Part shown: in pieces, positions 4,457 to 47,260 of the stretch | Layout: each line of letters starts with the position of its first letter | How positions within the stretch are numbered: the stretch's first letter is position 1 | IMG/VR virus record: IMGVR_UViG_3300036944_001184 | Span: 1-58,166 of that record | DNA: 58,166 nucleotides | Direction: 5' to 3' (one strand) | DNA from: a virus | Position numbers and translations under genes: made by a program | Notes under the pieces: model-generated | The model's database searches: none | Told to the model about the DNA's origin: nothing | The model's input: the letters and a program-made list of their open reading frames with translations, nothing else

Positions 4457-4812
4457 GATTCCTCCTTTCTATTCAGGGTGGCGAGGGCTTCGTCAATGGG
4501 GCCAAGTAGGAGGCAATCATCGCAATCGCATTCGGGTTGGACTCTCCATTCTGCATACTCGTTGCGGATCATCCTCAGCAGGTCCGCCAGATTGTCACAC
4601 TGATTTCGTGTCTCTCGGTAGGCTGACTGCTCGACAACCATCGCGTCAACTACAACAGCGTAGGCAATTCTCGCCTCGTCGCGCTCGCGCACTAACTCGT
4701 TGTGCCGCCCGATCATGTCTTCCAAGGACTCTCGGGTGCAGAGGAACAGGGGGCCGCAGTCCGCGAGTGTCAGCATGCCGTCACGGGATCGGTGAATGGT
4801 TGGCGCGCTCAC
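4453..4812 (-). CDS. Hypothetical protein with Cys-rich acidic segment (119 aa)
   Basis: The start is GTG at 4812, overlapping the stop of the HTH gene as GTGA and preceded by AGGAGGTG at good spacing. The product has a helical, probably coiled-coil middle (LVRERDEARIAYAVVVDAMV) and a late ECDCDDC cluster that could bind metal. The family is not recognised. It sits directly downstream of, and is coupled to, the five-HTH protein. Confidence 0.7.
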   Translation of the reverse strand: MSAPTIHRSRDGMLTLADCGPLFLCTRESLEDMIGRHNELVRERDEARIAYAVVVDAMVVEQSAYRETRNQCDNLADLLRMIRNEYAEWRVQPECDCDDCLLLGPIDEALATLNRKEES

Positions 4813-5534
4813 TTCGCCACCTCCTTCCCGACCACGTAATCCCGCTTGAACGAGAACCCATTCCGGCGACCGTAGAATACCACGGTACCCGGCATCAGGT
4901 TCAACGAACCACTTATCATGTCCACCGAATCGCCTCGACGCAATGCCTCGACGACCTGCTCCTCGTTGCTGTTCCTTGGCCTTCCACTTTTGCCTGACTG
5001 GTAGGTGTAGACCAGATCAGGAGTCAGCCCGGTGGCGTAGGCGATCCCCTCGGCGCTGATGCCAAGACCTTGCAGCCTGCGAATCTCGCCTGCCACCTCC
5101 TTCTTGCGTGCGCTGGAGTGTTTCGGAATCACGATTCCGTTGCGGCTGCACACCTGATAGACGGTCTGTATCTTGACGCCAAGCTCGGCGGCGACTTCTG
5201 GCACAGACTTGCCCTGCTCCAGAAGCGCCTGCATCCGGACGGGTTGCTTGGGTTCCTTGGTGCGGAGCCCGCCCTTCAGCTGGAGGGTGCGTACCCGGGT
5301 CTCGGAGAGGCCAAGAGTCTCGGCGATCTGTTCCTCGGTCTTGCCGTCAAGCATCAGCTTGGCGATCTTCATGGTCTTGTTCGCCGCGTTGGATCGCGCC
5401 TGCGGTGGCATCTTGATGTTGTGGTATCTCATGTGGGCTCGGATGTTTCCTTGGTTGGTGCCGAGTTGTTCGGCGATCTCATTCACTGTGCGTCCTGCGG
5501 ATAGCAGGTTCCTGATAAGGGGTTCGTGTTTCAT
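4809..5534 (-). CDS. Tandem helix-turn-helix DNA-binding protein (five HTH units)
   Basis: The 241-residue product consists almost entirely of repeated units of about 45 residues. Each has the shape 'gly-turn, hydrophobic helix, IAxxLG, TxxxVxxh'. Units are near residues 5-40 (VNEIAEQLGTNQGNIRAH), 55-90 (EEQIAETLGLSETRVRTL), 100-135 (VPEVAAELGVKIQTVYQV), 148-182 (AEGIAYATGLTPDLVYTY) and 195-230 (VDMISGSLNLMPGTVVFY). These match the HTH of resolvase or sigma-region-4-like folds, but no catalytic domain is attached. It is inferred to be a modular DNA-binding regulator or nucleoid-type protein. A likely target would be a set of repeated sites, and the genome offers several such families. It overlaps its neighbours by 4 bases on both sides. 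Confidence 0.8.
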   Translation of the reverse strand: MKHEPLIRNLLSAGRTVNEIAEQLGTNQGNIRAHMRYHNIKMPPQARSNAANKTMKIAKLMLDGKTEEQIAETLGLSETRVRTLQLKGGLRTKEPKQPVRMQALLEQGKSVPEVAAELGVKIQTVYQVCSRNGIVIPKHSSARKKEVAGEIRRLQGLGISAEGIAYATGLTPDLVYTYQSGKSGRPRNSNEEQVVEALRRGDSVDMISGSLNLMPGTVVFYGRRNGFSFKRDYVVGKEVAK

Positions 5535-5689
5535 GTGTCTTGTGTGTCGAGTGTTTTGATGTAGTCGCTGACGAGCTTGATGTCGTCACTGTCAGATCCG
5601 CCTACCACCAGTCGGTGGGCAGCGGCGCGGATTTCTGCGGGGCAGGCTACCGAGCCTCCCGCCAATCGGTATAGCAGTTGTTTGTTCAT
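5531..5689 (-). CDS. Small hypothetical protein (52 aa)
   Basis: The ATG at 5689 overlaps the stop of the winged-helix gene (ATGA), which selects this start over a much longer upstream frame full of Gly and Arg. The product (MNKQLLYRLAGGSVACPAEI...) ends in a helical segment, DDIKLVSDYIKTLDTQDT. No family was recognised. The tight coupling to two DNA-binding genes suggests a shared regulatory operon. Confidence 0.6.
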   Translation of the reverse strand: MNKQLLYRLAGGSVACPAEIRAAAHRLVVGGSDSDDIKLVSDYIKTLDTQDT

Positions 5690-5961
5690 GGCTTGTATCG
5701 TCTCTTCAGTTCCTTCACCACGGCTGCTCCGGTTCCCGTAAGTCGGTAAACCGCAGAGCCGTCGCGAAGCCAGTTTGTTTTGGTCAACAGCCCGTCCGCC
5801 TCGGCCCGCTTCAATGCCGACTTGGCGAAGCGAACCGGGACATCGAGCATCGGGGCAGCCTCTTTCGAGGACACCCCATCCACCTCCGCCGCGACCAGCA
5901 CGGCGAAGGTGGAACAACGTCTAGCACCAAGCGTGGCAAGTGCAAGTAGAAACTGTATCAT
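5686..5961 (-). CDS. Winged helix-turn-helix protein (91 aa)
   Basis: The product has the layout of a MarR/ArsR-like winged helix: an N-terminal helix (FLLALATLGARRCSTFAVLV), a recognition region (GVSSKEAAPMLDVPVRFAKSALKRAEADGLL) and a wing with the YRLTGTGAAVVKEL pattern common in phage wHTH proteins. It overlaps the amidoligase stop by 4 bases. It could autoregulate the leftward operon, but no operator was proven. Confidence 0.65.
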   Translation of the reverse strand: MIQFLLALATLGARRCSTFAVLVAAEVDGVSSKEAAPMLDVPVRFAKSALKRAEADGLLTKTNWLRDGSAVYRLTGTGAAVVKELKRRYKP

Positions 5962-7979
5962 ACAGTGGTCTTCCTGCGCGCGTCACTGATGAACTCCTTG
6001 GCGACCAAGAAGTCGAACAGCACCGGGTAAGTCTTGCGCGACTTGGACACGAAGTCCAAGAACGTAGCGGCGTTACCGATGCTGGTCAGGCTGGTGGTTG
6101 CTGGCCGGGTGAAGGCCAGCACCGCCTCGACGAACTCGATGTTGCGGACAAACCCGCCCGGGTCCAGCGTGCCCCGGAAGATCCGGAACTCGATGGTGTT
6201 CGAGCCGGAGGTGTTGACCGCTTCGTATCGGTCGCCGTACTGCGACTTGCCGCTGGTGAGGCGCTTGTCTTGGAACACCGCATAGCGGGAACCCTTGCGA
6301 CCGGCAACCGAGCTGACGATGCGGGACATGTCAGGCGAGTTGACGGTCACCAGAATCCGCCCGATCCACAGCGCACTGAGCGGCTTGCGGCTAACGTGGA
6401 TGTGCATGCCGCAGTAACCGTTGCTCCAGCTGGACATGTGGCGCGTAACCTCCGGGTCGTTGAGCGCACTGGTCCAGATGCGCTTGTGGACAGCAGGCGA
6501 ATCCGGGCGGGTGACCACCTCGAATCCTCCGCACTCGATGCTACCGTCGTGCTTGAAGACTCCGTACTTGGCGAAGTCATCCTTGTCCGACAGCGCGTCA
6601 GCCATGACCCGGGCGCAATCGTCCGTGTCGTAGCCCTTGTCAGTGCCCACCTCCAGTTCGATGCCGAACTTGAGGGCGACGTCCTCCTCGGGCTTCATGC
6701 CAGTAGCGGTGTCGTTCGAGTAGTTGCGGATGCGGGTGCGCGAGCTTCCCGAGCAGCGATGACACTCGCCGTTCTCGACAAGGTGGTTGAGATACCAGTA
6801 GCCGCACTCGCTACAGTAAGTCGCCACTTCATCCAGCTCATGCGCGCGTATCCAAGAATACTCGTGCCCGGTTCGTGAATAGTAGCCGCTTCGGATCTGC
6901 ATGGCCCGGTGCCTCGGGGCACGGTCACCACTCAATGTCGTGACAGCCAGCCCGGTTAAGCTCCACTCCCCTTCCACCAGCTCGTAGGTTGGGTTGTTGG
7001 TTGGCGGCTCCAGAAGGTACTCGTACGGGCTAGACCCATCGGTATGCCAGATGGGAGTAAGTTCGGAAACCGGGTGCCACTTGCCACCATCCACCATGGC
7101 CCGATCCCGGCGACTGCGCACGAACTTCCCAGCGTGAGGCCCGCCAGTAATCGCGAACCCATCACCACGCTTCCCGAAGCTGCCGTCAATGAACTGGATC
7201 AGATCAGCGTGCCCTTCGGGATACCACGTTCCTGATACGGGGACCGCCTTGTCGCGGCGCAAGTACTTCCCTTCCGCGTGACACCACACTGCATCCTCAG
7301 CAGGAACAAGGAAGCGACCTACCTTGACGCAGATAGCTCCATCCTTGCGCGTGGTTCGTGGTAAGCCCGTCATGAGCGCGGGGCTCATGTCGGTGCGCAG
7401 CTCCACGCCCAGTTCGAGAAGCTCCTCGCTGCGGTTTACCACGAGGGAGTTGCGGTCTGCGCTCAGCACGCAAAGCTCCAGCCGCTTGCTGTAGTCCTCG
7501 AACCAGTAGATGGTGCTTCCGTTTGGCAGTACCGTGTTGTCCGCCGAGGAGAGACGCTCCCCGGTGATGCGGTTGAACAAGCCCTTCTCCGGGATCTTGA
7601 GGGCGGTGATGCCCAGCTTGTCAGCGTAGGCCCAGTCGGAGTAGCCTGCGTAGCAGGCACCTGACGGCAGGGGCGAGGTGACTCGGACAAGCCCCTCGCT
7701 CAAGTCGCGGATGGTGTATTCCCCAACCCGTGATCCGATGGATACTGGTTGGCCTTCGTAGGTGTACAGGTATTTCATTTTTGATGCAGTTGGTTGTGTT
7801 GTGTAGTTGTACCAGTTGAGGTGGTCGTTGAGTTGGACTGGCGGGATCTCCGCCCACCCGTCAGGGTTGGTAGCCCCACAGCTCCTTTGTATAGACCGCA
7901 TTCGTCCGTAGAACCCGTCAAGTTGCGCTTGACTAATGTAAGCTAATGGCTCATAAGTACTAGGAGGTTCTTCGGGCAT
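5958..7979 (-). CDS. Amidoligase-family protein 1 (673 aa)
   Basis: The C-terminal 240 residues match the putative amidoligase (glutamine-synthetase/GCS-like COOH-NH2 ligase) pattern. FGIELEVG is near residue 438, DGSIECGGFEVVTRP near 478-492, MHIHVSR near 525-531, and TIEFRIFRGTL near 595-605. The acidic residues of FGIELE and the His and Arg of the later motifs are those expected to bind metal and ATP. The N-terminal part carries repeated Trp/Tyr-rich modules (DAVWCHAEGKYLRRDKAV) and a C-x2-C...C-x2-C zinc ribbon before the catalytic region. The ATG at 7979 starts one base after the stop of the upstream gene. A later Met at 7778 (MKYLYTYEG) is an alternative. A paralogue lies at 9926-11419 and a glutamine amidotransferase lies between them. 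The substrate is unknown. Confidence 0.75.
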   Translation of the reverse strand: MPEEPPSTYEPLAYISQAQLDGFYGRMRSIQRSCGATNPDGWAEIPPVQLNDHLNWYNYTTQPTASKMKYLYTYEGQPVSIGSRVGEYTIRDLSEGLVRVTSPLPSGACYAGYSDWAYADKLGITALKIPEKGLFNRITGERLSSADNTVLPNGSTIYWFEDYSKRLELCVLSADRNSLVVNRSEELLELGVELRTDMSPALMTGLPRTTRKDGAICVKVGRFLVPAEDAVWCHAEGKYLRRDKAVPVSGTWYPEGHADLIQFIDGSFGKRGDGFAITGGPHAGKFVRSRRDRAMVDGGKWHPVSELTPIWHTDGSSPYEYLLEPPTNNPTYELVEGEWSLTGLAVTTLSGDRAPRHRAMQIRSGYYSRTGHEYSWIRAHELDEVATYCSECGYWYLNHLVENGECHRCSGSSRTRIRNYSNDTATGMKPEEDVALKFGIELEVGTDKGYDTDDCARVMADALSDKDDFAKYGVFKHDGSIECGGFEVVTRPDSPAVHKRIWTSALNDPEVTRHMSSWSNGYCGMHIHVSRKPLSALWIGRILVTVNSPDMSRIVSSVAGRKGSRYAVFQDKRLTSGKSQYGDRYEAVNTSGSNTIEFRIFRGTLDPGGFVRNIEFVEAVLAFTRPATTSLTSIGNAATFLDFVSKSRKTYPVLFDFLVAKEFISDARRKTTV

Positions 7980-7980
7980 C

Positions 7981-8238
7981 TCAGTTGCAGTGGTGGTTGG
8001 TGAATGTGTCAAGGTCATCCAGCATTGAGCCATCGTCCCCGAGCATGGTGGTCATGGCGAGGTTGATGGACGATGCCTTGTTGCTGTCGTGCGCCGCTTC
8101 GAACGAGGTGGTCTTCCCGAAGGGGAAAGACCACACAAGGGCGCGGTGCCCGGCTTGTGACTCGGTGAGTGAGAGTCGCAGGGACTCGCGCTTATCTGGC
8201 GTGGTGACGACAATCGCGTCTAGTGTTTCGTATTTCAT
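7981..8238 (-). CDS. Hypothetical protein (85 aa)
   Basis: The ATG at 8238 overlaps the upstream stop (ATGA) and lies in an A/C-rich leader (CAACAACCATG) without a Shine-Dalgarno sequence. The product MKYETLDAIVVTTPDKRESL... is mixed alpha/beta and ends in an acidic tail (DDGSMLDDLDTF). No family was recognised. It directly precedes amidoligase 1 and is probably translated with it. Confidence 0.6.
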   Translation of the reverse strand: MKYETLDAIVVTTPDKRESLRLSLTESQAGHRALVWSFPFGKTTSFEAAHDSNKASSINLAMTTMLGDDGSMLDDLDTFTNHHCN

Positions 8239-8504
8239 GGTTGTTGTGGAGTATCGGTGTTGGTGATCTTGCAAATGAGGATCTGAACTTGGTTGTCTTT
8301 CAGGTTCACTCCGAAGATTCGTTTCATCACGCAGCGGAAAAACGACGTATCCGGTGCGAGGCTGGCGACGTGGCTGCTGATGAACTTGTCCGCGATTTCT
8401 CGCGTGATGAGCCCCTCGTTGACCATCGCAAGCGTGGTGTTATGGAGCGTTCGGGTCATGAGGTCAGCGATCTCGTCGCTGCCGTTGATGGATATAATGT
8501 TCAT
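8235..8504 (-). CDS. Hypothetical helical protein (89 aa)
   Basis: The product begins MNIISINGSDEIADLMTRTL and is mainly alpha-helical, with one Cys in FFRCVMKRIFGVNL and another near the C-terminus. Like its neighbour, it starts in a CAACAACCATG context and overlaps the next gene by 4 bases. No conserved family was recognised. Confidence 0.65.
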   Translation of the reverse strand: MNIISINGSDEIADLMTRTLHNTTLAMVNEGLITREIADKFISSHVASLAPDTSFFRCVMKRIFGVNLKDNQVQILICKITNTDTPQQP

Positions 8505-8701
8505 GGTTGTTGTTTGGTAATGGTCCAGCCCTTGCCCTCGATCGCCTTGCCGGTGCGCCGCTCCGTCGCCTCGCGACCATCGACCGCGTTGTGGTCGTAG
8601 GTCACGGGGGGTTCGGAGGAGGACAGCTCTGGTTGGCAGAAGCAGTCAGGGGATGGGGTGTGTGGTTTGAGGTCGTTCAGTGGGATGATGTGGTAGGTCA
8701 T
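8501..8701 (-). CDS. Small conserved phage-type protein (66 aa)
   Basis: The product contains YHIIPLNDLKPHTPSPDCFCQPEL followed by HNAVDGREATE. I recall this as a recurrent pattern in small phage proteins (NDL-x-PH...C-x-C-x-P...HN-x-x-DGRE). The Cys-x-Cys, His and Asp residues look like a metal site. The ATG at 8701 overlaps the stop of the small membrane protein upstream. Function is unknown. Confidence 0.65.
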   Translation of the reverse strand: MTYHIIPLNDLKPHTPSPDCFCQPELSSSEPPVTYDHNAVDGREATERRTGKAIEGKGWTITKQQP

Positions 8702-8820
8702 GCTCTTGTTGCAATGATGATGGCGAGGGCAACCGCCGCCGGGAGCAGCGTCCTGATGTCCCCGGTGACGAGGAGCAGCAGGACACTGAGGACAAGCCAA
8801 GTGTATAGGATAAGTCGCAT
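8698..8820 (-). CDS. Small membrane protein (40 aa)
   Basis: A 40-codon frame encodes two hydrophobic segments, LYTWLVLSVLLLLVTG and LLPAAVALAIIIATRA, with a short turn between them. It overlaps the next ATG by 4 bases (ATGA) and starts five bases before the amidotransferase stop, so it fits the operon exactly. Two-helix mini-membrane proteins like this are common in phage early regions. A holin-like role is possible but unsupported. Confidence 0.6.
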   Translation of the reverse strand: MRLILYTWLVLSVLLLLVTGDIRTLLPAAVALAIIIATRA

Positions 8821-8824
8821 GGTA

Positions 8825-9841
8825 TCAGACGTGGGTAATGCGCTTCAGGGTTTCATGGTTCGGGATGGAGACGCCGTAGATGTTCTGCAACTCGTCGCGC
8901 AGGACCTCCGCCCCGTCCTTGCGGGAGGCGAGCATCTCCAGATCGTAGAGTGTGTAGCCACACTCGCCCAGCTCGGTGACCATCCACTCGTTCTCCTCGC
9001 CGATCTCGGCGATGATCATGGCGTATGAATCCTCCTCGCTGAGTCCGTCGTCCATTGCCCAGCCACCTTCGGAGACCGTCTCGGAGCGGGCAGAGAGATA
9101 GGCTTCCCAATCCTCTTCATCCATGTCGTCGATCTCCTTGTCGGACAAGGTCTCCTTGACCGGAACGGCGATGACCGGATGATAGGTGGTGGTGCCATCC
9201 GCATTCTTGGTGGTGGTCCAAGCCTGCTTGGGCTTGGCCTTGGCGCTGTACGAGTAGCCGCGCGGGTCGGCACAACGCCAGTCCTCGTAGCTGCTGTTGG
9301 ACCACCAGACTCCGTTCTTCCAGTGACCATTCGCCTCGCCCCAGATGGCGAAGTCGCCGTCCGCATTGAGGAACACCAGCTTGTTGCTGCGACCCACCAT
9401 CATGTCGCCCATCGTAATGAACTCGGGGCGCATGAAGTACTTGTGATCGTTGAGCCAGAACGGGTGCAGGATGTCGCGGCAGATGTGCCACGTATCGCTG
9501 AACGACGGGTTGTCATTGGCTGCCTCGAAGAACATGCCGTTGTGGATCACGGCAGCAGGGCAGCCGCCACCGTCACCGAAGGTACGCAGATCGAACGGAT
9601 GGCAGTTGTCCTGATTGACCTTGCCATGCGTGGAGATGCGGAAGTGGATGATCGCCGCGTACTCGCCGAAGGGTTCGAGCGCCTTCTTGAAATGCTCGAA
9701 CTTGAAGAAGCCCTTCTCGACGATGAGCTGACCGTCAACCGCGACAGCGAAGCCAGCGCCATCCGGGTTGTAGTTCATTCCATTTTCGAGGGCGTTCCAA
9801 TCAGGGGCGATACCGGCTGGTTTGTATAGTGCAAGACACAT
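8825..9841 (-). CDS. Class II glutamine amidotransferase-like protein (338 aa)
   Basis: The start at 9841 gives MCLALYKPAG, placing Cys at position 2, the N-terminal nucleophile of class II (Ntn) amidotransferases once Met is removed. Further family signatures follow in order: NPDGAGFAV (25-33), AIIHFRISTHG (63-73), NCHPF (79-83) and AVIHNGMF (98-104). These residues bind glutamine and form the oxyanion hole in this fold. A C-terminal region of about 150 residues is acidic and unrecognised. The enzyme would release ammonia from glutamine or act as a Ntn hydrolase. Its place between two amidoligases implies that it supplies or cleaves amide nitrogen in the same pathway. Confidence 0.8.
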   Translation of the reverse strand: MCLALYKPAGIAPDWNALENGMNYNPDGAGFAVAVDGQLIVEKGFFKFEHFKKALEPFGEYAAIIHFRISTHGKVNQDNCHPFDLRTFGDGGGCPAAVIHNGMFFEAANDNPSFSDTWHICRDILHPFWLNDHKYFMRPEFITMGDMMVGRSNKLVFLNADGDFAIWGEANGHWKNGVWWSNSSYEDWRCADPRGYSYSAKAKPKQAWTTTKNADGTTTYHPVIAVPVKETLSDKEIDDMDEEDWEAYLSARSETVSEGGWAMDDGLSEEDSYAMIIAEIGEENEWMVTELGECGYTLYDLEMLASRKDGAEVLRDELQNIYGVSIPNHETLKRITHV

Positions 9842-9898
9842 AATGGTAGTTTGTTTTTGTAGTAGTGGTTTGGGTGTTTTCTGCTGCACCCGCAGCGT

Positions 9899-9919
9899 CT
9901 TATCCGTTTTTCCGAATAG
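9899..9919. repeat. 22-bp inverted repeat family, degenerate copy
   Basis: This has TTATCCG, a T-rich loop, then CGAATA, a weakened member of the CTTATCCG/CGGATAAG hairpin family. It sits in the 84-base gap between amidoligase 2 and the amidotransferase. Confidence 0.55.
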
Positions 9920-9925
9920 CGGGGA

Positions 9926-11419
9926 TTACTTGGTGTAGAAGTCCTTCTTCTTGAGGAAGGCAAACAACTCCTTGTAATCCTTGCGCCGCTTGGATACGAA
10001 GTCAAGGAACTTCTCGGGCTCCGCAACATCGCGGTTGCTGGTGGTCGCGGGACTGGTGAAGGCCAGCACCGCTTCGACGAACTCGATGTACCGGATAAAC
10101 GATTCACGAATCAGGGTTCCACGGAACAACCGGAACTCGATCGTCTCGCGGGGCGAGTTGTTGACTGCGTCGTACTTGCGCTCGACTCCGGTCTTCTTGC
10201 CGTTGGTCAGCTTCTTGGTCCGGATCTCCGCGTAGTTGGTGTTGTACCGACCGGACACCTTGGCGACGATCGACCGCATGGAGGGCGAGTTGATCATGAC
10301 AAGGATGCGACCGATCCACAGCGCACTGAGCGGCTTGCGGCTGACGTGGATGTGGACGCCACAGTTGCCACTGTTCCAGCTGGTCAGGTTGCGGCGAACC
10401 CGCGGGTCACTGAGGAACTCCGAGAAGATCCGCTTGTGGACCTCGGGCGCATCGGGGCGGGTGACGATCTCGAAGCCGCCGTCGTTGAGCGAACCGTCCT
10501 CCTTGTAGACCACATACTGGTCAGGGAAGATGGACTCGCACAGCTCGACTCCGTTGTCCGCGTCCCGCCCCTCCACCTCAAGCTCGATGCCGAACTTGAG
10601 CGGCACGTTCTTCTCCGGGCGGAGGTTGGCTGCGGACTTGTCGCTGTAGGACTGGAGCCCGGATGGTGGCGACCAGCAGTTGGTGCAGTTGCCGTCCTCG
10701 GCGTAGTCGTCATTGCTGAACCGCTCGCCGCAGCAGTCGCAGATGAACGTCTCATCGTTGAGCCAGTCACGGCAGTACCAGTCGCCGCACCACTCCTCCA
10801 TCTCGTCGATGAAGTAAGCCTCGTTGGTGCCGTAGCAGTAGGCGACGATGTCATCGTCCGCCCAGCAGTCGTAGTTCTCCATGTAGGTGTAGCCGTCCTC
10901 CGGTTGCTCGGTCACCCATTCGCCACCGCTGCGGCGATCGTAGTAGTTGTAAACGAGGCGGAAGCAGTTGCTCTTCAGGTGGTTCTCTCCGTCAATTTCA
11001 ACAGTCATGGTCTTTGGGTAGTAGTTGGTTTCTTCGTCAAGGGTAACTTCAACAGCATCACTTTTCAGGATTCGTGATCCGTTAAGAGTGATTACTGATA
11101 GGGATTCGTGAACCCACTCGCCGCTTGTGAGGCGCATGTAGTCGCCCGGAATGTCAGAGTCAGGCACAGTAACCAAGCGCACGCTGGTCAAGTGGTCCCA
11201 GTTCCAACCACGGAATACTCTCTGGAAGCTTTCCGTAGTCTCTTCGTCGTACCCGGCGTGTCTCGCGCCTTCCAAGTCCACGAGCTGGACCCCGAAGTTT
11301 TCGATATCCGCCACGCGGACCTTGATGCGTTTGATTATACTGAGGGTCCGGAAGTCCATCTCGATGATGTCTCCCACTTGAACGCGCTTGCCAGTGTTGG
11401 TGTCAATCCATGCTTTCAT
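9926..11419 (-). CDS. Amidoligase-family protein 2 (497 aa)
   Basis: This is a paralogue of the gene at 5958. FGIELEVE (276-283), KEDGSLNDGGFEIVTRP (about 306-322), VHIHVSR (355-361) and TIEFRLFRGTL (426-436) line up with it, and the block HVSRKPLSALWIGRILV is identical. The N-terminal region has Trp/Tyr/Asp-rich modules (GGEWV, CWADDDIVAYCYGTNEAYFIDE) and a zinc ribbon (CDCC ... CTNC). The ATG at 11419 (MKAWIDT) was chosen because it matches the MKYLYTYEG alternative in the paralogue. Where protein 1 has LDPGGFV, this one has LIRESFI, encoded by heptamer-type DNA. It probably acts with the adjacent amidotransferase on an unknown substrate. Confidence 0.75.
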   Translation of the reverse strand: MKAWIDTNTGKRVQVGDIIEMDFRTLSIIKRIKVRVADIENFGVQLVDLEGARHAGYDEETTESFQRVFRGWNWDHLTSVRLVTVPDSDIPGDYMRLTSGEWVHESLSVITLNGSRILKSDAVEVTLDEETNYYPKTMTVEIDGENHLKSNCFRLVYNYYDRRSGGEWVTEQPEDGYTYMENYDCWADDDIVAYCYGTNEAYFIDEMEEWCGDWYCRDWLNDETFICDCCGERFSNDDYAEDGNCTNCWSPPSGLQSYSDKSAANLRPEKNVPLKFGIELEVEGRDADNGVELCESIFPDQYVVYKEDGSLNDGGFEIVTRPDAPEVHKRIFSEFLSDPRVRRNLTSWNSGNCGVHIHVSRKPLSALWIGRILVMINSPSMRSIVAKVSGRYNTNYAEIRTKKLTNGKKTGVERKYDAVNNSPRETIEFRLFRGTLIRESFIRYIEFVEAVLAFTSPATTSNRDVAEPEKFLDFVSKRRKDYKELFAFLKKKDFYTK

Positions 11420-11445
11420 ATCAGTATGTTGTTTCAATTCAGGTA

Positions 11446-11657: not shown

Positions 11658-13028
11658 TCAGGCATCGTTGTGGATCTCGCGATCCTCTGTGTGCATCCGG
11701 AAGCTCCGCGATGGGTCCATCACATCGCGGAACAACTTGTCCGCTGCTATCTCATCCTCCGCTTCGAGGAAGTAGTGCCGCACCTCGGTGATGCGGTACT
11801 TCAACTTCGGGGCAGGGGGTGGTGGGGCAGGCGAAGCCGGGGCGGGTGCTGGCATCGGGAATGCGGGGCGAGCCGCCCGGGGTGTTGCGGGCTGCTGGGC
11901 GCGCGCTTCCTGGTGAATGCGAGAGTGGACGCCTTGCCAGTAATCGTGTCCCTCGGGAGATGCGCCCCAGCTGAAGCCACGACCCAGCGCATCCGATGCG
12001 GAGGTCGCCGCGCCGTCACTTCGGTAGTGCCAGTTTCCGCTCTGGCTTGCCATGTGTCCAAGCGCCACCTCTGACTCAGGAATCGTGTGCAACCATTCCT
12101 CAATCGTGGTTGGCTGGATCTCTTCGACCAGATCGAAGTCGAAGTCACCCGGAGGATTCCACCTACCACGCTCGGTGAACGTCCTGTCCGTTCCGCCTAG
12201 GCGGGCTTCGAACTTGAAGAAGCTGTCCACCCGGGAGGGTGGGAGGCTGCGCATGTATCCGGTTGTCTGCCCATCCCGAGTCCGGTATCGGTAACCCGGT
12301 CTGACGCGGAACTCGCCGAGGGGTGCCGGGGTAGCGGGCGCAGCTGGCGAGGTGAGCAGGTTGCCGTGTTCGTCGCAGGGATCGCAAGACCTGTGAGCCA
12401 TGTCCGCCCGATTAAAACAGGAGCTTACCCAACGGGAACCGGGTTCCCCCCTCGTCTCACCGTTCCCCGATTCAGGCATCCGCCATACCCGATTCGTGAT
12501 TCGGGATCTGAAGTACAGGAACTCCGGTTGAGTGGTTACTGGTTCGGGTTCGGGAGCAGGAGCGAAAGCAGGTTCCGGGGTAAGCGATTCGTGATTCGTG
12601 GTGGGGAAGTACTCGGTCACATTGGCGAGCCCCCAAGTGGATTCGACCATGTCGTGGAGGTTCATGATCGACGCAACCCATGTGCGCCCACCGTCTTCAG
12701 ACCGCCAGCAATCGGTGTCATCAGTCGGGTCACCGGTTACCCGGGTGCGGTAGTGGTCTCCGTTCTGGTGTCTGAAATACCGGTGGGTAGGAGCGGGATC
12801 AGGTGTCGGTTCATTAGCAGGCTCTTCGCCCGGGATAGGTGGGAGTTCGCCAAGGGACACGGCCCGCCAGAAGTCATGCCCCTCAGGGGAATCCTCCCAA
12901 ACGAATCCGGTCACGAATGAATCACGCAGGCCGACGCATTCATCGACCAAGGTCCGGGCTGAGCTGTTGTCGATCGCCCGCTCCATGTAAGCGGCGGGCA
13001 GGGTTTCAAACCATTGTTGTCTCGTCAT
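11658..13028 (-). CDS. Modular hypothetical protein with internal duplication (456 aa)
   Basis: The start at 13028 (MTRQQWFETLPAAYMERAI) was chosen because a similar segment, IEEWLHTIPESEVALGHMA, recurs about 280 residues later. Each copy is followed by a GFVWEDSPEGHDFW or GFSWGASPEGHDYW block, so the protein contains a duplicated domain. Between and around them lie Tyr/Phe/Trp-rich modules (HRYFRHQNGDHYRTRV, PEFLYFRSRITNRVWRM) and Pro/Ala linkers. A related module occurs in the protein at 13315. Heptamer-type DNA encodes NHESLTPEP near the middle. Function is unknown; the layout suggests a scaffold or binding protein rather than an enzyme. Confidence 0.75.
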   Translation of the reverse strand: MTRQQWFETLPAAYMERAIDNSSARTLVDECVGLRDSFVTGFVWEDSPEGHDFWRAVSLGELPPIPGEEPANEPTPDPAPTHRYFRHQNGDHYRTRVTGDPTDDTDCWRSEDGGRTWVASIMNLHDMVESTWGLANVTEYFPTTNHESLTPEPAFAPAPEPEPVTTQPEFLYFRSRITNRVWRMPESGNGETRGEPGSRWVSSCFNRADMAHRSCDPCDEHGNLLTSPAAPATPAPLGEFRVRPGYRYRTRDGQTTGYMRSLPPSRVDSFFKFEARLGGTDRTFTERGRWNPPGDFDFDLVEEIQPTTIEEWLHTIPESEVALGHMASQSGNWHYRSDGAATSASDALGRGFSWGASPEGHDYWQGVHSRIHQEARAQQPATPRAARPAFPMPAPAPASPAPPPPAPKLKYRITEVRHYFLEAEDEIAADKLFRDVMDPSRSFRMHTEDREIHNDA

Positions 13029-13039
13029 TTTCGTAGGAG

Positions 13040-13270
13040 TTAGAGTTCGATGAGGGTGTGGCGGGATTCGACAGGCGAGCCGCAAGCGGTGCCGTCTTGG
13101 TTGTACCAAGTGTTGTTGTCGCCAAGGTAGGTGGTGATTCCACCGTAGCTGGACGAGGTGACGATGGTGACCTGCTCACCTTGACGGTTGCGATAGACGC
13201 GACCGAGGATGGGTGAGGCAGGGGAGGACTGGTCGAGTGTGACCAAGGCGAGTTGGATGTTGGTTTTCAT
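13040..13270 (-). CDS. Hypothetical beta-rich protein (76 aa)
   Basis: The start at 13270 (MKTNIQLALVTL) follows directly after an inverted repeat of the TTATCCG family. The rest, GRVYRNRQGEQVTIVTSSSYGGITTYLGDNNTWYN, looks like a small beta-barrel or SH3-like fold. It resembles the protein at 15663 in general layout. Family unknown. Confidence 0.65.
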   Translation of the reverse strand: MKTNIQLALVTLDQSSPASPILGRVYRNRQGEQVTIVTSSSYGGITTYLGDNNTWYNQDGTACGSPVESRHTLIEL

Positions 13271-14495: not shown

Positions 14496-14519
14496 CTTAT
14501 CCGTTTTACCGGGTAAGGT
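14496..14519. repeat. 22-bp inverted repeat (CTTATCCG-TTTTAC-CGGGTAAG)
   Basis: A member of the intergenic hairpin family with one mismatch. It touches the stop of the repeat protein at 14519. Confidence 0.65.
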
Positions 14520-15529
14520 TAGCGGCCTGCCTCCAGTGCGGCGACACGCGCGGCGAGGGATTCAAGGGTGACCGGCTCAGGCTCAGGTGTGGGCTCGGGC
14601 TTCTCCTCAGGAATCCCGGTCTCGACCAAGGTTCCGAAGCAAATGGTTCCTGATTCGAGACGCCCGCAAGTGATAAGTGATTCCTCCAGTGTTGGGTTTC
14701 GCCACAGGCAAAGGCCAGCAAAGATGCGAAGTGCCGAGGCGAGGGCTAGCGTGCAAGTAATTGAGAAGCCTGCTTTGATGCCGGAGCCTGCTTTGATGCC
14801 CTCGCCTGCTTCGATGCCCTCGCCTGCTTCGATGCCCTCGCCTGCTTTGATGCCCAAGCCTGCTTTGATGCCCTCGCCTGCTTTGATGCCCAAGCCTGCT
14901 TCGATGCCCTCGCCTGCTTCGATGCCCCAGCCTGCTTCGATGCCCTCGCCTGCTTTGATGCCCTCGCCTGCTTTGATGCCGGAGCCTGCTTTGATGCCCT
15001 CGCCTGCTTCGATGCCCTCGCCTGCTTCGATGCCCTCGCCTGCTTTGATGCCCCAGCCTGCTTCGATGCCGGAGCCTGCTTTGATGCCCTCGCCTGCTTT
15101 GATGCCCAAGCCTGCTTCGATGCCCTCGCCTGCTTCGATGCCCCAGCCTGCTTCGATGCCCCAGCCTGCTTCGATGCCGGAGCCTGCTTTGATGCCCTCG
15201 CCTGCTTTGATGCCCAAGCCTGCTTTGATGCCGGAGCCTGCTTTGATGCCCCAGCCTGCTTCGATGCCCCAGCCTGCTTCGATGCCGGAGCCTGCTTTGA
15301 TGCCCTCGCCTGCTTCGATGCCGGAGCCTGCTTTGATGCCGGAGCCTGCTTTGATGCCGGAGCCTGCTTGAGCACGGATAAACCCTTTCGCGGATAATGA
15401 ACCAGAGAACCGGACGTATCCCATATCGGGGGCGATGTCGATGTTTCCGTCATAGTCATTGACGGGGGTTGCTCCGATGTAAAGGTTGTCGGAGTTGAGG
15501 TCTGCTTTGGTGATGAGTAGTGTTTTCAT
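14519..15529 (-). CDS. GI(K/E)AG hexapeptide-repeat protein (336 aa)
   Basis: The N-terminal 55 residues (MKTLLITKADLNSDNLYIGA...) are followed by about 33 tandem hexapeptides of the form G-I-[K/E]-A-G-[S/E/W/L], encoded by 18-bp DNA repeats. A unique C-terminal domain with several Cys follows, then a Pro/Glu linker and a short coiled coil (TLESLAARVAALEAG). Regular hexapeptides with Ile and Gly suggest a left-handed beta-solenoid or similar stack. Within the array almost all variation falls at two positions: K or E, and S, E, W or L. Related repeat proteins occur in other phages, but I know of no established function. Confidence 0.8.
   Translation of the reverse strand: MKTLLITKADLNSDNLYIGATPVNDYDGNIDIAPDMGYVRFSGSLSAKGFIRAQAGSGIKAGSGIKAGSGIEAGEGIKAGSGIEAGWGIEAGWGIKAGSGIKAGLGIKAGEGIKAGSGIEAGWGIEAGWGIEAGEGIEAGLGIKAGEGIKAGSGIEAGWGIKAGEGIEAGEGIEAGEGIKAGSGIKAGEGIKAGEGIEAGWGIEAGEGIEAGLGIKAGEGIKAGLGIKAGEGIEAGEGIEAGEGIKAGSGIKAGFSITCTLALASALRIFAGLCLWRNPTLEESLITCGRLESGTICFGTLVETGIPEEKPEPTPEPEPVTLESLAARVAALEAGR
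14762..15370. repeat. 18-bp tandem repeat array (about 33 units)
   Basis: The plus-strand unit is GCCTGCTTYGATGCC plus a variable triplet (CTC, CAG, CAA or GGA). Because the period is a multiple of three, several other frames are also open across the array. Those frames are not taken as genes. The array encodes the hexapeptides of the protein at 14519. Confidence 0.95.
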
Positions 15530-46497: not shown

Positions 46498-46962
46498 TCA
46501 GAGAGTCAGGGCGGCGATGATGGCTCGTTCAGATTCTTCCGTGAGCCCTGTGTAGCAGTCAGTTTGAACCAGCTTGTGCCTTAGGTGCGCCATGTCAGAC
46601 CCGTCGTCTACAATGCAGAACCTTTCCGGGGTGCCGTGCTCGTCCATCCATGCTTGGATCTCGTGACCCCGCTCCTTGGCGAGATACAGCCCATTCATCT
46701 TGCGGCGAACAAGATCAGGAGTGGAGTCAAGTATGGAGAGCCCTAGGATGTCAAAAGCCGCGAGGAGTTCTCTCATGGCAAATGGGTAGATCCGCCAAGT
46801 TGACGAAAGTACAATCCGGCAATCGGTTTGGTCCACAATGTTTACCAGCCGGGCGAGTAGGTCTTGCTCTAACCGCATGTGTGACTTGCCACAGCGGTTT
46901 AGAACGCCGTCCACGTCTAGGAATAGGACAGGGAATTTCACGAGCTTAGTAGGTCCAGCCAT
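46498..46962 (-). CDS. HAD-superfamily phosphatase-like protein (154 aa)
   Basis: The start MAGPTKLVKFPVLFLDVDGVLN at 46962 gives HAD motif I (DVDGV). Motif II is VLSSTWR, Lys lies in VRRKMNG, and the distal acidic motif is CIVDDGSD. The pattern with 'LSSTWR' fits HAD domains related to RNA-repair or phage nucleotide phosphatases. The upstream frame to 47040 lies in the resolvase-like gene and is not used. The real overlap is 17 bases. Confidence 0.8.
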   Translation of the reverse strand: MAGPTKLVKFPVLFLDVDGVLNRCGKSHMRLEQDLLARLVNIVDQTDCRIVLSSTWRIYPFAMRELLAAFDILGLSILDSTPDLVRRKMNGLYLAKERGHEIQAWMDEHGTPERFCIVDDGSDMAHLRHKLVQTDCYTGLTEESERAIIAALTL

Positions 46963-47260
46963 TTTGAAGGATCTTTGCGAAGGAATCCAGACGGATGACC
47001 ACCACGGGAACCCGGCGATCCTCCATGAGGACTGCCGCATCTACGTGTTCGGTCAGCGCCGAGGTGATGATGGCGGGCAGCGCCTTGCGCGCCTTGACTT
47101 GGATGCGGCACCCGGCGGACTTCACGTCCACCTCTTCGTGCTCACCCATCGCCCTGCCGTTGGAGCCCCAAGCGCGCTTGGCGTCCAGTCCTTGGGATTC
47201 CAAGTACTTGACCAGCTTGACTTCAGCGCGATTGCCTTTTGCTTTTGAGGGGCTTGCCAT
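46946..47260 (-). CDS. Holliday-junction-resolvase-like nuclease (104 aa)
   Basis: KGNRAEVKLVKYLESQGLDAKRAWGSNGRAMGEHEEVDVKSAGCRIQVKARK has the PD-(D/E)XK layout of archaeal Hjc-like resolvases: an early Glu, then E-VD and Q-VKAR (the E-x-K pair). It would cut branched DNA before packaging. Size is normal for the family. It lies among replication genes, which supports the call. Confidence 0.75.
   Translation of the reverse strand: MASPSKAKGNRAEVKLVKYLESQGLDAKRAWGSNGRAMGEHEEVDVKSAGCRIQVKARKALPAIITSALTEHVDAAVLMEDRRVPVVVIRLDSFAKILQNGWTY

Follow-up and report, generated by a model that had tools for sequence, protein, structure and literature searches.

A phage amidoligase-amidotransferase couple with a second ligase: a candidate split amide synthetase

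What does a phage do with two amidoligase-like proteins encoded on either side of a class II glutamine amidotransferase (GATase), and do the three act together? The question is raised by IMG/VR record IMGVR_UViG_3300036944_001184, analysed here as a whole (58,166 bases, hereafter the window). The record carries tailed-phage genes (DNA polymerase, helicase, exonuclease, endolysin and terminase); no terminal repeat was found in it, and it is possibly a fragment. In the order of transcription, its minus strand encodes a ligase (Lig2), the GATase (GAT), two or three small genes and a second ligase (Lig1). We consider it likely that the core of this module is a split glutamine-dependent amide synthetase. 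The three main genes are the following.

9926 to 11419, minus strand: Lig2, an Amidoligase_2-type ligase with a beta-rich N-terminal region, a CxxC zinc-ribbon-like segment, and then a catalytic core predicted to adopt the glutamine synthetase/gamma-glutamylcysteine synthetase (GS/GCS) fold.
8825 to 9841, minus strand: GAT, a class II (N-terminal nucleophile, Ntn) GATase of 338 amino acids with Cys2 after the Met; the Ntn domain spans residues 1-186 and the C-terminal part is helical and variable.
5958 to 7778, minus strand: Lig1, a second Amidoligase_2-type ligase and paralogue of Lig2, in an open reading frame (ORF) that is open to 8033.

A preliminary description, made from the letters alone, had placed three such ORFs on the minus strand and quoted motifs for the ligases (FGIELE, HIHVSR, TIEFR-FRGTL) and for GAT (MCLALY, RISTHG, NCHPF and HNG, with Cys2). 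The ORFs and all of these motifs are indeed there, and its assignment of the proteins to the amidoligase and class II GATase families is supported by profile, fold and residue conservation: the Lig2 core has a predicted GS-like fold, GAT a predicted Ntn fold, and the presumed catalytic residues are kept in the alignments.

Families, folds and conserved residues

Against PF12224 (Amidoligase_2), Lig1 scored 21.2 bits and Lig2 19.6 bits, for a curated cut-off of 22, and 48 of 49 aligned ligase homologues matched the profile (E up to 0.01). Profile searches against PDB sequences were uninformative, the wide ligase alignment A3 giving no match and the narrower alignment A2 mostly zinc-ribbon chance matches, with YbdK at E 0.66; a fold model was therefore used. 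In the model of Lig2 (residues numbered in the 503-amino-acid ORF counted from 11437), the core, at about residues 276-503, is confident (predicted local distance difference test, pLDDT, mostly >90), and the N-terminal part is modelled at low confidence. The core superposes (Foldseek 5.9e-6) on YbdK with a Z score of 12.0 over 213 residues, on glutamine synthetases with Z around 11.8, and on GmaS with Z 10.9; sequence identity to YbdK and glutamine synthetase is 10-17%. Judged by this model, the catalytic core of Lig2 is of the GS/GCS type. The comparison was run on Lig2, to which Lig1 is 56% identical in the core. The motifs GxExE, DGS, E, HxH and TxExR are invariant or nearly so in the 49 sequences, both window ligases included. 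Residues E285, E287, D314, E323, H362, H364, R397, E434 and R436 are strictly invariant, and thus both Lig1 and Lig2 retain every one of them. The profile matches of the homologues, the predicted fold and residue conservation support the membership of both ligases in the Amidoligase_2 group; such enzymes would form amide bonds with ATP.

GAT scored 15.5 bits with GATase_4 (curated cut-off 23), a profile matched by 39 of 41 aligned GAT homologues (E up to 0.01). A profile built from ten GATs found the GlmS glutaminase in the PDB at E 4e-13, and also PurF; the structural model gave Z 14.2 over 173 residues for GlmS and 12.5 for PurF. Residues C2, R68, T71, H81, P82, H100, N101, G102, S115 and D116 are invariant in the 41 homologues, H72 nearly so; in an alignment with GlmS, the R..TH...HP...HNG stretch falls on the active-site motifs. 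M1 and C2 are invariant in alignments A1 and A4; the count of 81 GATs with an MC start is not independent, as the choice of start itself selected for MC. GAT is thus predicted to have an Ntn glutaminase fold of the GlmS/PurF type, with its signature residues complete. In the ligase and GAT sets alike, the presumed catalytic residues do not vary.

Linkage of ligase and GAT

We then examined the best-scoring 80 of 343 ligase profile hits in viral contigs, and the best-scoring 80 of 474 bacterial hits. A GAT ORF adjoined the ligase on the same strand in 80/80 of the viral loci kept and in 75/80 of the bacterial ones, and for 3 of the 5 bacterial exceptions the contig ends less than 500 bases from the ligase. 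The median gap between the two genes was 20 bases in viruses and 93 bases in bacteria, and ligase and GAT overlapped in 11 of 86 cases of the viral set. Ligase and GAT distances were strongly correlated (Mantel r = 0.915 for 147 pairs, maximum 0.074 in 999 permutations). Besides these two genes, neighbour clustering found no family in more than 8 of the 47 viral locus groups. In Bacillota, the neighbours of the bacterial copies read as relaxases, resolvases and integrases (from reading of the sequences rather than a family search), so that most of these copies seem to belong to mobile elements. The linkage, the short gaps and the parallel divergence strongly support a near-obligatory couple of ligase and GAT in this branch, in phages and bacterial mobile elements. 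They also strongly support the earlier proposal that the three window proteins act in one pathway.

The neighbourhood search showed a widespread pair, and a whole module confined to the window and two other IMG/VR contigs, L003 and L004; megablast of the region against phage records gave no match. Lig1 and Lig2 form sister clades, each with orthologues in both related contigs (support 100/99), and the duplication is therefore older than the split of the three phages. The ligase-GAT-ligase trio is thus a conserved variant of one phage lineage, with ligases that arose by duplication. Separate ligase duplications occurred in two other lineages, making three in all: L028, L029 and L054 have two ligases, each with its own adjacent GAT, and Ruminococcus-type elements (L096, L098, L100, L106 and L112) have the order ligase-ligase-GAT. 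For the window, the simplest reading is that one GAT serves two ligases. Because ligases duplicated in three lineages, the suggestion that two ligases mean two steps or two acceptors is plausible. All three genes are under purifying selection between the window and L004, with ratios of nonsynonymous to synonymous rates (dN/dS) of about 0.33 for Lig1, 0.31 for Lig2 and 0.21 for GAT.

Other partners were searched for by profile. No match to PF13535, PF08443 or the ATP-grasp protein of StenR_269 was found in the window, while positive controls matched, and gamma-glutamyl cyclotransferase (GGCT, PF06094) was found neither in the window nor in its two relatives; the absence of both partners noted from the letters is therefore confirmed within this record. 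GGCT was present in 2 of the 41 records carrying the pair. The COOH-NH2 ligase profile PF14395 had no match in the window, in a search that lacked any positive-control match. CmoA was found neither in the window nor in any record with the pair (0/41), and C5-methyltransferase (PF00145) was absent from the window and over the cut-off in 4/41 records. A reading of the module as a defence system was dropped, as none of the three proteins matched a PADLOC (anti-phage defence) profile.

The other genes in and beside the module are the following.

8501 to 8701, minus strand: 66-amino-acid small phage protein phrog_2864, lying between the GAT and Lig1 genes and retained in both relatives.
7981 to 8238, minus strand: 85-amino-acid protein directly upstream of Lig1, conserved in both relatives.
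5686 to 5961, minus strand: 91-amino-acid ORF with weak sigma-70 region 4 and winged-helix-like matches, overlapping the end of Lig1 and conserved beside the module.
4809 to 5534, minus strand: 241-amino-acid DNA-binding protein with multiple helix-turn-helix motifs, downstream of the module and conserved at the equivalent position of L003 and L004.

The 85-amino-acid protein is 98% and 89% identical to its counterparts in the two relatives and, with dN/dS of about 0.05-0.09, is the most constrained protein of the module. No homologue was found in Pfam, PHROGs, phage records or viral contigs beyond the three phages with the trio.

Proposed reaction, acceptor and related systems

In the split synthetase that we favour, GAT would free ammonia from glutamine via its N-terminal cysteine. 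The GS/GCS-fold ligase would phosphorylate a carboxylate with ATP and couple it to this ammonia, which supposes glutaminase activity of GAT, ammonia transfer and formation of a complex. Other glutamine-dependent synthetases follow this logic; here the ligase, of predicted GS fold, and the putative glutaminase, of class II, are encoded separately. Lig2 and GAT would represent the ancestral adjacent pair, and Lig1 a diverged duplicate that probably shares this GAT and acts on another carboxylate or another substrate.

Several observations weigh against this scheme. The window proteins fall slightly under the Pfam cut-off of Amidoligase_2 and under that of GATase_4. The linkage samples are best hits, retrieved with a profile seeded mostly with GAT-linked ligases; once related loci are merged, 90 viral loci count as 47 independent groups, and shared descent alone could produce correlated distances. 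The distant annotated phage ligases L013 and L014 have no GAT within the flank examined; the coupling is therefore a feature of this branch rather than of amidoligases in general. The peptidoglycan target put forward below is a guess. Finally, the GAT fold is as close to the gamma-glutamyl hydrolase EgtC (Z 14.0) as to GlmS (14.2).

This last point raises the possibility that GAT is an EgtC-like hydrolase, the ligase adding a gamma-glutamyl or similar group that GAT later removes or trims. In GlmS an arginine and an aspartate hold the glutamyl group, and both are conserved in GAT. Cyclotransferases also occur in related phage clusters (StenR_269, and LUZ24-like phages, PMC3890496). However, the sequence profile finds GlmS and PurF, the listed chains, up to E 0.1, do not include EgtC, and a cyclotransferase accompanies the pair in only the 2 of 41 records mentioned above. 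A class II domain beside an ATP-dependent ligase is, moreover, more commonly a glutaminase. We therefore regard the hydrolase as unlikely.

As no third phage gene accompanies the pair, the acceptor of a split synthetase would probably come from the host. That phages and mobile elements share the module, and that no third gene is constant in it, suggests a common host molecule. AsnB/LtsA-type enzymes, which have a class II domain, amidate peptidoglycan stem peptides, and so does a pair whose glutaminase, GatD, is of class I. That pair, comparable to ligase and GAT, is MurT-GatD (PMC3267633), and because of these two precedents a cell-wall precursor is our first guess. Peptidoglycan precursors, through their stem-peptide carboxylates, are thus the best guess for the acceptor, a tentative one that we would not back at even chances; cells that are infected, or that carry the element, would then have an altered wall.

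A small metabolite is a further candidate, and two other acceptors would be compatible with the same mechanism. In the first, a host or phage protein (for example RNA polymerase, a translation factor or the 85-amino-acid protein) would be tagged, or amidated at its C terminus or on side chains. PafA and Dop, GS-fold enzymes that act on proteins, are among the fold matches, the CxxC ribbon and beta-rich N-terminal part of the ligase could bind a macromolecule, and the 85-amino-acid protein is the most constrained gene product of the module. Confined to three phages, however, that protein is excluded as a general substrate, and an acceptor is not readable from fold similarity; protein amidation is a doubtful candidate, though a serious one. 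In the second, the ligase would amidate a carboxylated base in phage DNA, as in CmoA-CmoX-CmoY hypermodification. That glutamine-linked amide ligases of phages can act on carboxylates in DNA has a published precedent in that system, whose second ligase cluster carries a glutamine-hydrolysing domain (PMC12783734). These are likewise phage amide ligases, some with such a domain, but they are AMP-forming asparagine-synthetase homologues, not of GS fold, and their partners CmoA and CmoX are absent from the window. The absence of CmoA and the rarity of C5-methyltransferase given above, and the abundance of the pair in relaxase/recombinase-type elements of Bacillota, also speak against DNA, which is a very unlikely acceptor.

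A more specific scheme, speculative and improbable in this full form, would have a two-part enzyme, widespread in phages and integrative elements, amidating one defined host carboxylate. In the window, a second ligase would use the same glutaminase on a different carboxylate, with the 85-amino-acid protein as substrate, carrier or regulator.

The pairing of ligase and GATase is already known from OM43 phages, Marvin and LUZ24-like phages, and phage amidoligases with GATases have been reported together with hypotheses on their role (PMC10580990, PMC3890496). According to PMC10580990, the OM43 phages MEP401 and MEP402 have the same amidoligase-GATase gene pair; this paper repeats the proposals of cell-wall modification (phiEco32) and of secondary-metabolite synthesis (Marvin). 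These two phages and Marvin-type mycobacteriophages are like the window in order, strand, adjacency, and ligase (PF12224) and GATase families, but have one ligase rather than two, identities of about 25-36% and other N-terminal parts. The LUZ24-like and phiEco32-like cluster is described as comprising amidoligase, COOH-NH2 ligase, GATase, ATP-grasp and GGCT; its usual proposed role, cell-wall modification, is credited by later papers to Iyer et al. 2009 (PMC3890496, PMC11945000). This cluster, represented here by StenR_269, has the amidoligase and class II GATase in common with the window, which differs in having neither ATP-grasp nor GGCT, PF14395 being unmatched in the control-less search. 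YbdK and glutamine synthetase are the best fold matches of the Lig2 core, to which Lig2 adds the ribbon, the beta-rich N-terminal part and a partner GATase. The glutaminase domains of GlmS and PurF share fold and signature residues with GAT, whereas GAT is a separate protein, unfused to a synthase, with another C-terminal part.

What the present analysis adds is a measure of the coupling, evidence on the folds, the variant with two ligases and the tightly conserved 85-amino-acid neighbour. Phage amidoligase-GATase genes have been annotated for more than 10 years as putative metabolic or cell-wall genes, and no tested activity was found in the literature examined. A near-obligatory pairing without a third partner narrows the question to a two-protein system, open to purification and assay. 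Amidation of peptidoglycan or of host proteins, if true, would be a general route by which phages and mobile elements alter the host. In the trio phages, two ligases that probably rely on one glutaminase can be compared side by side.

Gene starts and neighbouring genes

The preliminary description had the three genes right, and its Lig2 start, the ATG at 11419, is most likely correct, the TTG listed at 11437 being only mechanical. The MC start of GAT is at 9841. For Lig1 the start of the listed ORF, at 8033, probably does not stand, and the two conserved small genes at 7981-8238 and 8501-8701 were missing from the description. Over the first 85 residues of the listed Lig1 ORF, comparison with L003 gave proportions of nonsynonymous and synonymous differences (pN and pS) of 0.43 and 0.43. 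Because a synonymous excess is absent there, Lig1 probably begins at the ATG at 7778, giving 606 amino acids, and the part of the ORF upstream of this codon is unlikely to be translated in the Lig1 frame. The gene of the 85-amino-acid protein overlaps part of this upstream stretch.

In L004, the first ~144 residues of the Lig2 ORF are missing from the orthologue (L004:7995-9077), whose start codon lies close behind the upstream gene; the N-terminal region of Lig2 would therefore be dispensable or variable. Immediately upstream of Lig2, the window encodes a 483-amino-acid protein with repeated small phage domains (phrog_16354/25460; 11658-13109, minus strand), whose counterpart in L003 is much shorter. 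A gene further on (14519-15529, minus strand) encodes numerous repeats of GI(K/E)AG type; close to the equivalent position, L003 carries in its stead a pentapeptide-repeat protein of A(N/D)LS type (L003:4903-5565). A HAD_SAK_2 protein (Swiss Army Knife RNA repair HAD domain, E 4e-29) is encoded at 46498-47040 (minus strand). Reading the printed start regions by eye, we saw a clear Shine-Dalgarno sequence upstream of few predicted genes of the window, a scarcity that may be informative on the host.

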